Origin: Psychromonas sp. MME1 | Lineage (GTDB): Bacteria > Pseudomonadota > Gammaproteobacteria > Enterobacterales > Psychromonadaceae | DNA length: 64,000 nucleotides | Assembly (NCBI RefSeq): GCF_041080865.1 | Contig: NZ_CP160906.1 | Coordinates: 186,001 to 250,000 of the forward strand | Direction: 5' to 3' | The notes under the pieces: generated by a model | What the model was told of the DNA's origin: nothing | Seen by the model: the letters and a program-made list of their open reading frames with translations, nothing else | Database searches by the model: none | Program-made: the position numbers and the translations under genes | In this document: piece after piece, positions 22,382 to 45,383 of the stretch | Position numbering within the stretch: the stretch's first letter is position 1 | Layout of the letters: every line of letters begins with the position of its first letter

Positions 22382-23340
22382 ATGACAGAACTATCTCTTT
22401 CTAAAGCAGAACTAATTCAAGAAGTTCGTACTGTTTTTGATGTGCAAAGTGCCGCTATTTCACTACGTAGTAAAGAAGTGGGCGATGAATATATTCAGGC
22501 GCTTCTGTTAATGAAAAATTGCACTGGGCGTGTCATAGTCTGTGGAATGGGAAAGTCTGGCCATATTGGTAAAAAAATATCAGCTTCATTGGCATCTCTG
22601 GGTACTCCTTCTTTTTTATGCACCCCGGTGAAGCTTTTCATGGCGATTTAGGCATGATCATGGCCGATGATCTTTTACTGCTTATCTCCTATAGCGGTGA
22701 AACCGATGAGTTGTTAAAAATTATCCCCTCGATTCAGCATTTTGGTAATAAGATCATCTCTATTACTGGTGGTATGGATTCCACCTTAGCAAAAAATTCC
22801 GACGTGGTATTAGATGCTAGTGTTGAAAAAGAGACATGCCCCAATAATTTAGCGCCGACCACCTCGACCACATTAACCTTGGTGATTGGTGATGCGTTAG
22901 CGTCAACCTTAACTTTGGAAAGAAAATTTAGTCCGATGGACTTTGCTAAATTTCATCCCGGAGGCAGTCTTGGTAAGCGTTTACTCACTTTTGTTAAAGA
23001 TGAGATGCGTAGTGAGAACTTACCCTTTGTTGATTGCGATACCTCATTGACCGATGCTCTGATGGTGATGACGGAAACACGTACTGGTCTCGCCTTGGTT
23101 ATGCAAAATGAAAAGCTACAAGGTGTCATTACCGATGGCGATGTTCGTCGTTTTCTTATCTCAGGAAAACCCATCACGGCGTGTTTAGCAAAAGATTTAA
23201 TGAATACTTCCCCGACGTTTATTTCGCAAAATACGCGCTTAACCGAAGCGGAAGAGATCATGCGAGCAAAACATATTAAATGGTTAATCGTCAGTGAAAA
23301 TGGGGGGGATATAGATGGTATTATCGAATGGGGGCAGTAA
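22382..23340 (+). CDS. kdsD: arabinose-5-phosphate isomerase KdsD, frame interrupted by 1-nt deletion
   Basis: Converts ribulose-5-phosphate to arabinose-5-phosphate, the first step of KDO synthesis for LPS. It is an SIS domain (VIVCGMGKSGHIGKKISASLASLGTPSF) plus two CBS domains (EMRSENLPFVDCDT and KDLMNTSPTFIS). The reading frame breaks at a run of six Ts at about 22612-22617: the first frame ends at 22651 and homology resumes as MHPGEAFHGDLGMI from 22618. One extra T would restore a protein of about 319 aa, close to the family's usual length. Either a real frameshift or a homopolymer sequencing error. Residues on both sides are well conserved. Confidence 0.85.
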
Positions 23341-35422: not shown

Positions 35423-35446
35423 CTCGCGGAAAAACACATAACAAAC

Positions 35447-35638
35447 AAGAATAGGTGTCGCGCAGCCGACACCTTATTCGGGTGTTGAACAAGCCCGATC
35501 GGGAATTGCTTCTCTTTATAGTAAATAGTGGATTTTGCTGAAGGCTAAATTTAATTTGTCACTTTTCTTTAGGCGAGTTTCGCTAATATACAATTGATAG
35601 TTCAATTATATCAATCTGTTATCTTTTTTGGTTGAATG
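35447..35638. repeat. 192-bp direct repeat, left copy
   Basis: This segment recurs at 38864-39055 with only two differences (GGG/GGA near 35500 and TTT/TTA near 35578). It opens with AAGAATAGGTGTCG and an 8-bp hairpin (AGGTGTCG against CGACACCT, 35453-35474), and ends GGTTGAATG. The two copies bracket the transposase and the retron gene. Confidence 0.9.
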
Positions 35639-35793
35639 CCAATACACCTCTTTTTATTCGCTTTCTGTTATGAATTCTTCGTAGAAGATCACGCGTGATG
35701 AGTGTAGTGCAGGACACCCACACCTTTTTGACTAAATAGAATATTATACCTATTATATAAACAGTGTTTTTGTTTACAGTTGTGGGGTTTGGT

Positions 35794-36789
35794 ATGACAC
35801 AATCACGTGCTTCGTTAATTTCTCTTGTGGACACACCTTATTATCATTGCATTTCTCGATGTGTTCGCCGTGCATTTTTGTGTGGCGAAGATAATTACAG
35901 CGGTAAAAACTATTCACATCGCCGGCAATGGATGGTCGATCGCATTCGGCAATTAAGTGATATCTTTGCCATTGATGTTTGCGCTTATTCGATTATGTCT
36001 AATCACTATCACCTTGTTTTACATGCAAATGAAGCCGAGATTAGCGCCTGTAGCGATGAAGAAGTTTGCCGACGTTGGTATCAACTTTATTCCGGCTCAG
36101 AAATAGTTTCGCGATGGCGCAAAGGGGAGCTGACTTGCGCAGGTCAAATAGAGGTGGCGCTTGAGATAATCAGCAAATGGCGTCATCGCCTGCTTGATAT
36201 CTCTTGGTTCATGCGTGCGTTAAATGAATTTATTGCCCGCAAAGCGAACGCCGAAGATAACTGTAAAGGACGCTTTTGGGAAGGGCGCTTTAAGTCGCAA
36301 GCATTGCTTGATGAAAAAGCACTATTAACTTGTATGGCTTATGTTGATTTAAACCCCGTGCGGGCAAAAATGTCAGAGAGTGTGGAAACATCGGAATTTA
36401 CGTCCATATTTGAGCGTATCCACAGTAAATGTAGTCACGATGAAGCGTTGCATTGCCATGATAACAGTAAACCCTTATTTGGTTTTGTAGCGGCAGAATG
36501 TGATGCGCCCCACGAAGGTATTCCCTATGCCTTGCTCGATTATCTAGAGCTTGTTGATTGGACTGGGCGAGCGATTCGAGAGGATAAGCGCGGCGTGATT
36601 TCGAGCCAACTGCCAAGCTTATTAAGTACCCTTGGTTTAGAGAGTGACACGTGGTTAGCCTTAGCCGTGAGTTTTGGTAAAGATTACCATGGTGCAGTGG
36701 GCTCACTTGAAGAGCTTGCCTTGTTTGCCGAACACACTGGTCGCTGTTGGGTATCTGGGCAAAACAAACTAAGTTGTATGCTGCATTAA
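35794..36789 (+). CDS. REP-associated tyrosine transposase (Y1/IS200-like, RAYT)
   Basis: HUH single-strand nuclease of the TnpA_REP type, thought to mobilise REP-like hairpins. It reads SLVDTPYYHCISRCVRRAFLC, the HUH motif in MSNHYHLVLHAN, and the catalytic Tyr region ACMAYVDLNPVRAKM-type (here TCMAYVDLNPVRAKM), with GRFWEGRFKSQ before it. The open frame extends to a GTG at 35764, but the ATG at 35794 behind GTGGGG matches family starts, giving 331 aa. It lies inside the pair of 192-bp repeats and next to hairpin repeats that are candidate substrates. Confidence 0.9.
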   Translation: MTQSRASLISLVDTPYYHCISRCVRRAFLCGEDNYSGKNYSHRRQWMVDRIRQLSDIFAIDVCAYSIMSNHYHLVLHANEAEISACSDEEVCRRWYQLYSGSEIVSRWRKGELTCAGQIEVALEIISKWRHRLLDISWFMRALNEFIARKANAEDNCKGRFWEGRFKSQALLDEKALLTCMAYVDLNPVRAKMSESVETSEFTSIFERIHSKCSHDEALHCHDNSKPLFGFVAAECDAPHEGIPYALLDYLELVDWTGRAIREDKRGVISSQLPSLLSTLGLESDTWLALAVSFGKDYHGAVGSLEELALFAEHTGRCWVSGQNKLSCMLH

Positions 36790-36895
36790 CTCCCAATCAT
36801 TTGTTTTTTTATTAACTATTAGCGCTTCGTTAAGGAGGCTCTGTGCGTTGATTTTAATAAAACTTGTTTAAACATATTGGATTGAGTCTCAAGTG

Positions 36896-37001
36896 CTGGA
36901 ATCTAACTATTTCATTACAGCAAAGTGCGGATTAAGATTATTTTTAAAAGAATGGCTATTAGTTTTTTTATAAATGAAAAGGTATGGATGTCCCCGTTCT
37001 T
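36896..37001 (+). repeat. 106-bp repeat, copy 1
   Basis: Reads CTGGAATCTAACTATTTC through to GATGTCCCCGTTCTT and is identical, as far as I can read, to 39160-39265. It lies 106 bp after the transposase stop. A TGTCCCCGTT-type tail is a feature I associate with RAYT-linked sequences in marine Gammaproteobacteria. Confidence 0.85.
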
Positions 37002-37048: not shown

Positions 37049-37108
37049 TATTTGCATCACTGTAAATCATCCTTCCAAGCATTTGATAACTAGTGTATTA
37101 TTCAATTC

Positions 37109-37251
37109 GGTTTCAACCTAAAATGTCTGAAGTTGTTACTGCTTTGGACTAGAAACTCAGGGTGACATATGCCCCTGCAGCCGACTTTAGCAGATTGTTT
37201 AATGTTTCTGTATTGCCTCTCGAGGTAGCGCAAGGTGATTGGGTTGAAACC
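37109..37251 (+). ncRNA. candidate retron msr-msd RNA
   Basis: Directly upstream of the retron RT a 10-bp inverted repeat, GGTTTCAACC (37109-37118) and GGTTGAAACC (37242-37251), could form the a1/a2 stem of a retron ncRNA about 143 nt long. Between the arms, CTGAAGTT pairs with AACTCAG (one bulge) and CAGGG pairs with CCCTG. The usual branching-G context (AGC right after a1) is not obvious, so boundaries and folding are tentative. Confidence 0.5.
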
Positions 37252-37274
37252 ACTTTTATCTAACGAGAATTTTC

Positions 37275-38871
37275 ATGGTTAAAATATTAGATATTCTATC
37301 ATTTAGCTCGGCCTCATTTGAGCCAGTTAAAATTTCATCAGAAAACACTTATGTTTGGAAAAACCCAAAACTTCACCCTCAACTAACTAGGAATGAGGAA
37401 CTCGCAAAAGAAAAATTTATTGGATTACAGACCGATAATGATGTCGCTAATTTATTGGAAATTCCTGTAGGCCAACTTCTTCACATTCTTTATTCCCAAG
37501 ATAAAAAATATAATACTTTTACAATAAAAAAGAGATCGGGTAAAAGCCGCATTATTGAAAGTCCACAACAATCAATTAAAATTTTACAAAATAAAGTAAG
37601 GTCTTTAATAGAAGCCCACTATAGAGTTAAAAAAAATGTACATGGTTTTGTGGGCAATGGAAAAGGCATTATATCTAATGCTGAACAACATAAAAAAAAG
37701 AAATATGTTTTAAATCTAGACTTGCAGGATTTTTTTCATTCAGTGAACTTTGGCAGGGTTCAAGGTATATTCAGAAATATACCATTCAATATGGGAGTGC
37801 CAGCTGCAACGGTACTTGCTCAGTTATGCACTCATAATGGTAGGCTTCCTCAAGGTGCAAGTACCTCACCTGCTTCTTTCCAATTTGGCATCAACGACCT
37901 TAGATAAAAAGCTTGTACAAATAGCAAAAAAGTACCATTTAACCTATACCCGATATGCTGATGATATTACTTTTTCAAGTAACAAGCCTTTTCCCCATTC
38001 TATTGTGGAAAAAGAAGAATTGGAAAATGGTGAATATAAGCATAAGGTTGGGATATTTTTAGAGCGGTCTATTAAAAGCTCTGGATTTAATATTAATCAT
38101 AGTAAAACTCGCCTACAACATAAGTCACAAAGGCAAGAAGTCACTGGATTAGTTGTAAATGAGGGCGTTAATATAAATCGGAAATTTATTCGCAAAACTC
38201 GGGCCATGATACATGATTGGAGGAAAGACTTACTTGAAGCTGAAAAGCGTTTCATCAAAATTCGTTATCATGCAAAGGAATCTGAGCTTAATGCCAGTAA
38301 ACTCGATGGTTCTATATATAAAAGAGCTGTATATGGAAATCTTAGCTTTATAAAAATGGTTAAAGGGGAAGAACATTCTCCTTATTTAACATTATGTAAA
38401 CAGGTATTAGAGTTAGACAATACTCCGCCTGATTTTGTTGGAAAATTAAAAGGTATATTTGATATGTATGATATTTTTATTTGTCACGCTTCTGAAGATA
38501 AAAATGAGGTTGCACTGCCTCTGTATGAATCACTTAAACAACGTAAGATAAATGCATTTATTGATTGTTTTTCTATAGGTTGGGGTGACTCGCTTGTTGC
38601 AAAAATTAATACTGCACTTCAAAAATCGAAGTATGTTATTGCAATTATTTCAGAAGACTCGGTAAATAAGTCGTGGCCAATGAAAGAACTAAATGCTGTA
38701 CTTTCTGCCGAAATTAGCTCTGAGCAAACAAAACTATTACCGCTTATGGTTGGTGACGGAGAAGCATTAATAGAAAAACTTCCTCTTTTGGCTGATAAGC
38801 TATTTGTTAGTTACGATAATAATATTAATGAAATTGCAGAAAAAGTTGAAGCTCACCTTGCAAAAGAATAG
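37275..38871 (+). CDS. retron reverse transcriptase fused to TIR domain, frame interrupted once
   Basis: Predicted anti-phage retron effector. The RT part shows the retron-specific NAEQH (NAxxH, residues 135-139), LDLQDFF (148-154), LPQGASTSP (191-199), YADD in TRYADDITFSS, GFNINHSKTRL and VTGLVVNEG (VTG motif). From about residue 397 a TIR domain follows: YDIFICHASEDK, FIDCFSIGWGDSL and SWPMKELNAVL with a candidate catalytic Glu. The frame ends early at 37907 and continues one frame over; an extra T (or two missing bases) near 37873-37879 explains this, since homology runs on as SNLASTTLDKKL. Repaired length is about 531 aa. TIR-linked retrons are known from defence screens; this one is untested. 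Confidence 0.85.
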
Positions 38872-39055
38872 GTGTCGCGCAGCCGACACCTTATTCGGGT
38901 GTTGAACAAGCCCGATCGGAAATTGCTTCTCTTTATAGTAAATAGTGGATTTTGCTGAAGGCTAAATTTAATTTGTCACTTTTCTTTAGGCGAGTTACGC
39001 TAATATACAATTGATAGTTCAATTATATCAATCTGTTATCTTTTTTGGTTGAATG
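38864..39055. repeat. 192-bp direct repeat, right copy
   Basis: Two mismatches from 35447-35638. Its first bases AAGAATAG include the stop codon of the RT-TIR gene, and its hairpin lies immediately downstream, where it could act as that gene's transcript end. The copies are 3417 bp apart. Confidence 0.9.
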
Positions 39056-39056
39056 T

Positions 39057-39155
39057 TAACTATTTCATTACAGCAAAGTGCGGATTAAGGTTATTTTTAA
39101 AAAGAATGGCTATTAGATTTTTTATAAATGAAAAGGTATGGATGTCCCCGTTCTT
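39057..39155 (+). repeat. ~100-bp repeat, copy 2 (diverged)
   Basis: Begins TAACTATTTCATTACAGC and ends CCCCGTTCTT. It matches copy 1 except for a G/A change, one extra A and an A/G change. It abuts the right 192-bp repeat. Confidence 0.85.
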
Positions 39156-39159
39156 CCCA

Positions 39160-39265
39160 CTGGAATCTAACTATTTCATTACAGCAAAGTGCGGATTAAG
39201 ATTATTTTTAAAAGAATGGCTATTAGTTTTTTTATAAATGAAAAGGTATGGATGTCCCCGTTCTT
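39160..39265 (+). repeat. 106-bp repeat, copy 3
   Basis: Identical by eye to copy 1 at 36896-37001. Only 4 bp separate it from copy 2, forming a short tandem pair. Confidence 0.85.
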
Positions 39266-44189: not shown

Positions 44190-45383
44190 TGAATAAAAAT
44201 TACCGCATCATGCTCTTATTTAATGCTAATAAGGCTTATGATCGTCAAGTCATTAAAGGTATCGGAGAGTATTTACAGGCAACTCAATGTGATTGGGATA
44301 TTTTTTTTGAAGATGATTTTTGTACTCATTTATCCCATATAAAGGATTGGGAGGGGACGGCATTATAGCTGATTTAGATGATCCGGAAATTGAATCATTA
44401 ATATCTACTTTAACTGTTCCTGTGATTGGCATTGGTGGTTCATATGAAAATGAAGAGGATTACCCTAAGATACCTTATGTTGGTACAGATAACGTTAGTT
44501 TAGTTGAAACCGCTTTTAATCATCTGAGAGATAAAGGGTTAGAGAATTTTGCATTTTATGGTCTCCCTGAGCATCCTTCAATGCGCTGGGCTAATGAGCG
44601 AGAAAAAGCATTTAATAATATTATTAATCGAGAGAAATATTATGGTTCGGTCTATAGAGGGAACATAACAACCGCAGAAACTTGGCAATATGATATGAAT
44701 CGTTTAGCTGATTGGCTTCAGCGTTTACCATCACCGATTGGTATTATTGCAGTGACCGACGCTCGTGCTCGACATCTTCTTCAGGTGTGTGAGCATTTGC
44801 AATTAATCGTGCCTTATAAAATTGCGATTATAGGTATCGATAATGAAGAGCTAACACGGTATTTGACTCGTGTATCCCTTAGTTTGTCGGACAAGGGTGC
44901 AAGTCAATGGGCTATACGGCTGCAAAGATGCTACATAATCGGTTAACGAAGTTAGAGCAAGCAGCACTTAAGGGCAGTTTGGAAAACAGTTCTCCTCGTA
45001 TCGTTGTCCCTGCTGTTAAGGTGTTTGAGCGACAAAGTAGTGATTTTCAAGCGATCAAAGATCCTTATGTAATTAGAGCCATGCATTATATTCGTAATAA
45101 TGCTTATAACGGCATTAAAGTTGATCAGGTATTAAGTTATTTACGAATTTCTAGATCCAATTTAGAGTTGCGCTTTAAGGAAGAAAGAGGTCACTCGGTG
45201 CATTGTGAAATTCATAACGCTAAGCTCAAAAGGGCGTGTCAGTTACTGATTTCTACTACGATAACTATTGCAGACATACCAAGCCTATGTGGTTATCCAT
45301 CATTGCAGTATATGTACACCGTTTTTAAAAAAGAGATAAAGATGACTCCGAAAGAATTCCGTTTAAAAAGCATGTTATCTTAA
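44190..45383 (+). pseudogene. xylR: xylose operon regulator XylR, two frameshifts
   Basis: AraC-family activator with a LacI-like xylose-binding N-terminal domain. The frame opens at ATG 44190 (MNKNYRIMLLFNANKAYDRQ) and breaks at about 44350-44354, where one G seems missing from a run of Gs (DWEG then DGIIADLDD). It breaks again at about 44906-44908, where one A seems missing (GASQ then MGYTAAKMLHNRL). With both restored the whole protein, including ARHLLQVCEHLQL and the C-terminal HTH (LRISRSNLELRFKEE, CGYPSLQYMYTVFKKE), is about 398 aa and colinear with E. coli XylR. Either a recent pseudogene or two homopolymer errors. Confidence 0.85.

Follow-up and report, generated by a model that had tools for sequence, protein, structure and literature searches.

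A retron reverse transcriptase-TIR gene in two reading frames, with an upstream msr-msd candidate RNA, in Psychromonas sp. MME1

The region at 37109-38871 of the window, as we call the whole stretch of 64,000 nucleotides that was analysed (bases 186001-250000 of a 3.59-Mb contig of Psychromonas sp. MME1), raises the question of whether a reverse transcriptase (RT) and a TIR domain encoded side by side form a retron with an RNA of its own, and of whether the gene, assembled in two frames, is intact in the cell. The order of elements is an RNA with paired ends followed by two overlapping open reading frames, which jointly make up an RT-TIR protein (Table 1). A -10-like box just 5' of the RNA, a candidate found by reading, is kept in the Pseudoalteromonas locus L029 and similar in L189. 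The G+C content of the RT-TIR gene was 33.4% compared with 40.1% for the window, and the two halves of the gene were the only matches to the RT family RVT_1 (E <= 0.001) in the genome, which consists of that one contig. The names borne by relatives of its KdsD protein agree with the genus Psychromonas.

Table 1. Positions of the features discussed in the text, numbered within the window
Feature	Positions	Strand	Remarks
kdsD/gutQ	22382-23340	+	frame-split; KdsD profile 9-84, then 81-311
R192, first copy	35447-35638	+	end of IS91-like element; attC-like palindrome with flank at 35436-35490
TIRYT-like element (RAYT-like Y1 transposase)	35712-36993	+	1282 bp; transposase gene 35764-36789
R106	36896-37001	+	right-end region of the TIRYT-like element; more copies at 39057-39155 and 39160-39265
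-10-like TATTAT (candidate)	37096-37101	+	just 5' of the RNA
msr-msd candidate (retron non-coding RNA)	37109-37253	+	covariance models R1 and R2; lone fold
a1 arm of closing helix	37109-37119	+	pairs with 37241-37251
First hairpin	37125-37149	+	conserved GUUGUU in loop region
a2 arm of closing helix	37241-37251	+	pairs with 37109-37119
Open frame 1	37275-37907	+	N-terminal half of retron RT (NAEQH, LPQGASTSP); homology stops at about 37874
Open frame 2	37750-38871	+	C-terminal RT half (YADD, VTG) and TIR; homology begins at about 37876
TIR domain (Pfam TIR_2)	38473-38829	+	PF13676, 74.2 bits; WxxxE glutamate 38686-38688
R192, second copy	38864-39055	+	overlaps end and stop codon of RT-TIR; without TAACAAAC flank
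xylR	44320-45383	+	sugar-binding part, then AraC-type HTH, spread over two frames
rnfC	60339-58100	-	frame-split; profile 2-96, then 100-554

Family assignment of the two halves

The RT motifs that the original prediction had read from the letters were all recovered, namely NAEQH (37677-37691), LPQGASTSP (37845-37871), YADD (37954-37965) and VTG (38140-38148), as were FICHASEDK and SWPMKEL in the TIR domain, the latter with its W at 38674-38676. In the profile searches RT-TIR_XII was the top PADLOC model for both the first (251.1 bits) and the second half (387 bits), ahead of RT-Protease_XI with 192.8 and 181.7 bits, respectively. Likewise, NF042941 (Retron_TIR_antiphage) was the top NCBIfam model and was matched by the first half at profile positions 3-149 and by the second at 150-464. 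Among the marks of type XII, a retron RT with NAxxH, YADD and VTG and a TIR domain C-terminal to it were found, while a single chain scoring more than 600 bits, the curated NF042941 cut-off set for the whole protein, was not, the two frames giving 221.7 and 422.8 bits. The end of the RT and the TIR domain do lie in one frame, that of the second half. Thus the fusion of a retron RT to a TIR domain that had been predicted stands on profiles and tree, whereas the one continuous chain also predicted is in the assembly spread over two frames.

That the gene codes for a non-retron RT of the group II or Abi/DRT kind, fused to a TIR domain by chance, has practically no chance of being correct. Although Pfam RVT_1 by itself cannot separate the two kinds of enzyme, the retron-TIR model scored about 200 bits above the group II model for the first half and about 400 bits above the Drt2 model for the second, and a covarying msr-msd lies 5' of the gene. 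These profile scores (19.3 bits for the group II maturase model TIGR04416 and 22.7 bits for Drt2) rule out a group II or Abi RT, so that the grouping which the original prediction had named as speaking against it was not observed. The phylogeny proposed at the same time placed both halves inside the RT-TIR branch: one fork with an SH-aLRT support of 97 held 16 of the 17 RT-TIR rows together with both halves and nothing else, in a quick tree of 35 rows that were chosen from the available loci and proteins and labelled by PADLOC scans where these were run, that was supported by SH-aLRT only and gave long-branch warnings among other retron types, and that, containing no non-retron rows, bears only on retron type. 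The sole RT-TIR row outside this fork was that of L048 from Chloroflexi, and given its position the TIR domain may have been joined to an RT more than once. L034, L038 and L048, from Chloroflexota and Balneolota, are RT fusions near type XII; the best models of L038 were RT-TIR models, with the match limited to its RT part.

In comparisons with solved structures, the chain closest to an RT-TIR profile was that of retron Ec67/Eco2 (E 9e-79, based on sequence), the best chain named as a group II maturase reached an E-value of 9.9e-10, and no chain spanning RT and TIR together was present among the structure matches listed. The best alignments of the TIR part were to bacterial TIR structures, among them that of the NAD+ hydrolase AbTIR, and the W and E of the WxxxE motif, whose glutamate we take to be the catalytic residue of TIR NADases, were kept in the alignments to 7uwg, 8g83 (AbTIR) and 4lzp. 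When the second half was used as a database query, 1684 proteins were returned at E <= 0.001; among the best 120 of these, 44 were at least 58% identical to it, of which 34 had 520-550 amino acids in a single frame and the other 10 had 221-519, some of them perhaps cut by contig ends.

The upstream RNA

The msr-msd RNA that had been proposed as a candidate 5' of the gene was substantiated by covariation, by a model made independently of the window and by co-occurrence with RT-TIR genes. Folded alone, positions 37105-37255 gave a z-score of -2.81, and none of 200 shuffles was equally stable. Similar sequence was found 5' of the RT-TIR genes of L029 (Pseudoalteromonas FUC4, an intact close relative), L189 (genome G098), the viral contigs L109 and L110, and L214, an E. 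coli plasmid. Across six sequences (A3) the closing helix was paired in 100% of cells, with 7 of its 11 pairs changed on both sides, and the first hairpin in 94.4% of cells, with 3 of 9 pairs changed on both sides; a third small helix was weak (82.6% of cells paired). The RNAalifold structure comprised 26 pairs, 12 of them with double changes, and, being derived from the same six sequences as the counts, which favours the structure, it was paired in 95.5% of cells compared with 80.6% after shuffling and at most 48.4% when slid; 28 cells were changed on both sides where 11.9 were expected from shuffles. Pair types were less telling (27 compared with 22.9, a value reached by 20 of 500 shuffles).

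Model R1, made from six sequences with that of the window included, scored 113.4 bits at the window copy and recovered two copies outside its training set, L219 (E 5e-24) and L111 (E 2e-22). Over 394 genomes of the order it matched in 27 at E <= 1, and the strong matches were those in G098 (1.6e-27), G000, the genome of the window (3.3e-27), and G034 (1.5e-22), followed by one at 0.0025. In what is apparently one and the same sample, G098, G000 and G034 were also the only genomes that NF042941 matched through the TIR part, out of 16 matching at E <= 1e-60. The RNA was not seen apart from an RT-TIR gene in the 394 genomes at E < 0.002, a search whose strict filters lose weak matches. The covariance search suggested by the original prediction was run with model R2, made from seven copies without that of the window, which found 37109-37253 with 91.3 bits and an E-value of 1.8e-22, the next match within the 64 kb having an E-value of 2.2; the E-values of both models are rough. 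Over 31 other RT loci, three of which are distant RT-TIRs, R2 gave a single match at E <= 1 (L032, 0.58). Since it missed the distant RT-TIRs L030, L031 and L048, the RNA as modelled is tied to a large portion of the RT-TIR family, which it accompanies, and not demonstrably to all RT-TIRs. When Rfam 15 was run over the window, only 6S and tRNA reached their gathering scores, and at the RNA only implausible matches below threshold were obtained. In known retrons, reverse transcription begins next to a2, and the conserved GUGAUUGGG beside a2 should, by this analogy, mark the expected start. In summary, a real RNA that is a convincing msr-msd candidate is well supported by these comparisons of sequence.

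The frame change near 37.87 kb

The reading frame changes at about 37.87 kb, in the stretch that separates LPQGASTSP from YADD, and no open reading frame of the assembly holds a whole RT plus the TIR domain. In the first product, the family model is matched as far as residue 200; in the piece translated from 37867, the match sets in again at residue 4. Being nearly contiguous across the seam, this homology indicates that the halves are separated only by the frame change, which, if real, would abolish the RT. The window copy is therefore either a recent pseudogene or an intact gene with an assembly error. Another contig in the database (the second contig in what follows), 828,961 bases long, carries a protein (P0003) that shows 100% identity with the second half and reads through the seam of the window, together with an N-terminal piece (P0125) of 98% identity whose end lies upstream of the seam, apparently at an A-run.

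We give an even chance to a sequencing artefact in a gene that is intact in the cell. Such an error is suggested by the continuity of the second contig across 37.87 kb and by three further conserved genes of the window: kdsD/gutQ and rnfC are split between frames at nearly contiguous profile positions, XylR lies in two frames, and KdsD has 240 amino acids here compared with the usual 316-322 (113 of 120 rows among the matches listed). However, the seam does not lie within any homopolymer of six or more, and the second contig is broken as well, if at another place. A real pseudogene, in which the RT of an acquired retron underwent a frame change that left the RNA and the fragments behind, falls slightly short of an even chance in our estimation. 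Decay of this kind is found among relatives, as G034 has its RT-TIR in two pieces about 1.2 kb apart, N-terminal fragments occur on long contigs of Agarivorans litoreus (P0124) and Shewanella baltica (P0127), the 10 relatives shorter than 520 amino acids may be degraded in so far as contig ends did not cut them, and six of the 60 E. coli places listed (H71, H72, H73, H101, H128, H130) are split or interrupted by insertion sequences, a count that is based on annotation and covers 60 of 83 records, the query having matched in 82 of 5426 genomes. The break of the second contig at a different site points the same way, although the second half, identical to the matching part of P0003, has kept its motifs and the three other genes are split likewise. 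Because of these three split genes, and of a second contig that is intact here and broken elsewhere, we rate an assembly error and a pseudogene as roughly equally probable. Besides their bearing on the retron, the splits in kdsD/gutQ, rnfC and xylR suggest an indel-prone assembly.

Programmed frameshifting, by which the fusion protein would be made from the two frames, has hardly any chance of being the explanation: the frames overlap and homology is kept up to the seam in both, but 34 of the 44 close relatives encode the protein in one frame, and in the second contig the frame is open across this site without any shift. A broader reading holds that breaks within the RT part silence RT-TIR retrons again and again in marine gammaproteobacteria, perhaps reversibly; it derives from the breaks at different places in two near-identical assemblies, one of them apparently at an A-run, and from relatives broken by apparent frame change or insertion. 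We regard it as quite improbable; if true, a suicide effector would be shed or phase-varied under low phage pressure. In E. coli 13P484A (H71, H74) the RT-TIR gene is annotated as whole on the chromosome and as split on a plasmid record.

Mobile surroundings, proposed mechanism and known relatives

The gene lies between remains of two mobile elements. On its left is a unit with a Y1 transposase gene that scored 41.6 bits with NF047646, REP_Tyr_transpos (cut-off 80), and 20.7 bits with Y1_Tnp (cut-off 23). Similar units were found in seven places (the window, L020, L021, L023, L024, L025 and L026) with pairwise identities of 94.5-97.6%; their left ends are identical or one to two bases apart, and their right end is TATGGATGTCC in six places, L026 being without the last three bases. 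These shared ends are comparative evidence that the element has probably moved. The exact left-end pattern was not found in the viral contigs; some units apparently lie inside other genes, and L021 holds a cluster of partial copies. In the sources on TIRYT/TIRtron elements a RAYT-like Y1 transposase gene is described with terminal inverted repeats and a right-end motif GGGGWSAS (PMC3733652, PMC6006769). With its transposase gene flanked by terminal inverted repeats, the multicopy element of the window, distinguished by its seven places with common ends and a right-end motif (GGGGACAT) one letter off the published one, appears to fit TIRYT/TIRtron better than REP/RAYT.

The second element is represented by the R192 repeats. 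Their outer 55 bases form an attC-like palindrome, from TAACAAACAAG to GTTGRAC (GTTGAAC in the window copy), and TAACAAAC precedes this palindrome in 12 of the 17 R192 copies listed, which include other species of the genus. An IS91-like transposase and a tyrosine recombinase lie beside R192 in L023 and L024, those of L023 being typed as Zn_Tnp_IS91/Y2_Tnp and Phage_integrase. Palindromes of this kind were observed at IS91-like ends across the genus (35436-35490, 38864; L208, L211, L212 and others). The genome of the window has two integron integrases over cut-off (G000:C1:1301511-1302449 and 68373-69314), and a rough script found few attC-like sites beside them. The palindrome may thus be either an IS end or an integron site. 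With the two integrases it could suggest an integron-cassette reading of the retron, but it is also an IS91-like end, and the R192 copy after the retron has no TAACAAAC flank.

No RT-TIR gene was found in the other genomes of the genus within the order sample, and when 369 genomes of the class were searched at E 1e-120, this genome alone was matched. The neighbouring phosphatase (E limit 1e-60) was likewise matched in one of 24 genomes of the genus, namely this one. Scans with P0002 for viral or other carriage returned no relatives. Among 160 loci, the best 80 of 581 genome stretches and the best 80 of 369 viral stretches, the TIR end was matched only in L029, L030, L031, L048, L109 and L110; the match of L111 extends to residue 426, at the end of its contig, and the viral contig L216 gave a pattern match but no RT-TIR match. 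The lack of RT-TIR matches in the other genomes of the genus and the low G+C content agree with the accessory nature of the region that had been predicted, whereas the repeats, attributed there to a REP/RAYT system, belong to the TIRYT-like transposon and to IS91-like ends.

What the analysis establishes is the anatomy of the locus: the order of its domains, their motifs, the RNA and the joint occurrence of this RNA with RT-TIR genes. Very likely the best explanation is a type XII retron acquired horizontally by Psychromonas, a marine genus, between the debris of the two mobile elements, which would act by msDNA-gated abortive infection through NAD+ cleavage by the TIR domain. For msDNA synthesis, gating, NAD+ cleavage and defence we infer from named relatives the following course. 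In a cell with an intact gene, the msd part of the RNA would serve the RT as template for msDNA, and the TIR domain would be kept inactive, as in the Eco2 fusion, by the particle that RT, msDNA and RNA form together. Once a phage alters the msDNA or the particle, the TIR domain would be set free or assembled and would then cleave NAD+, bringing the infected cell to a stop. The nearest TIR structures are those of AbTIR, TcpB and similar bacterial TIRs, some of which produce cyclic ADP-ribose isomers, and the TIR domain could instead signal by making such a compound rather than simply deplete NAD+; we consider this unlikely, as no obvious receptor gene adjoins among the neighbours scanned, which were mobile-element genes, an inositol-phosphatase-like gene and a small open reading frame without a family.

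The original prediction had treated NAD depletion by TIR-linked retrons in anti-phage defence as known. A second-hand account reports retron-TIR as anti-phage (PMC7699616) and the table of a review places Retron+TIR under NAD+ depletion (PMC10952713), which carries the defence part, and depletion is better worded as presumed. In the open-licence literature no primary measurement of NAD depletion by a retron-TIR was found, and no title pointed to structural or biochemical work on one.

Among known systems, the solved bacterial TIRs AbTIR and TcpB share the TIR domain with the protein of the window, with WxxxE kept in the alignment to AbTIR, but are not fused to an RT. Eco1 (Ec86) is likewise a retron RT and is reported to act via NAD(P)+ hydrolysis, with NAD+ hydrolysed and the msDNA as switch (PMC12948488); it differs in its separate ribosyltransferase effector and its filament. 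A closer parallel is Eco2 (Ec67, type I-C), a single-chain fusion of RT and effector with its own RNA and the closest solved RT, in which the msrRNA is described as locking a self-inhibited trimer; its effector is a Toprim RNase (PMC12405507), whereas that of the window is a TIR domain. According to the same source, about one third of retron RTs carry a fused domain, TIR being one of those named (PMC12405507). The closest likeness is to the NF042941/RT-TIR_XII family itself, with its NAxxH and VTG RT, C-terminal TIR domain and 5' msr-msd, whose model the two halves jointly match from end to end; the second half shares 46% identity with the Salmonella relative P0119, and the window copy stands apart from the family in being frame-broken as assembled. 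The kind of system is thus already known, and the locus is, judged by its sequence, a further RT-TIR retron, one that extends retron-TIR to Psychromonas and supplies for part of type XII, in marine and enterobacterial members, a covariance-tested RNA unmatched by Rfam 15, from which the priming and template regions can be placed and the restraint of a fused TIR domain by an RNA/msDNA particle can be tested.
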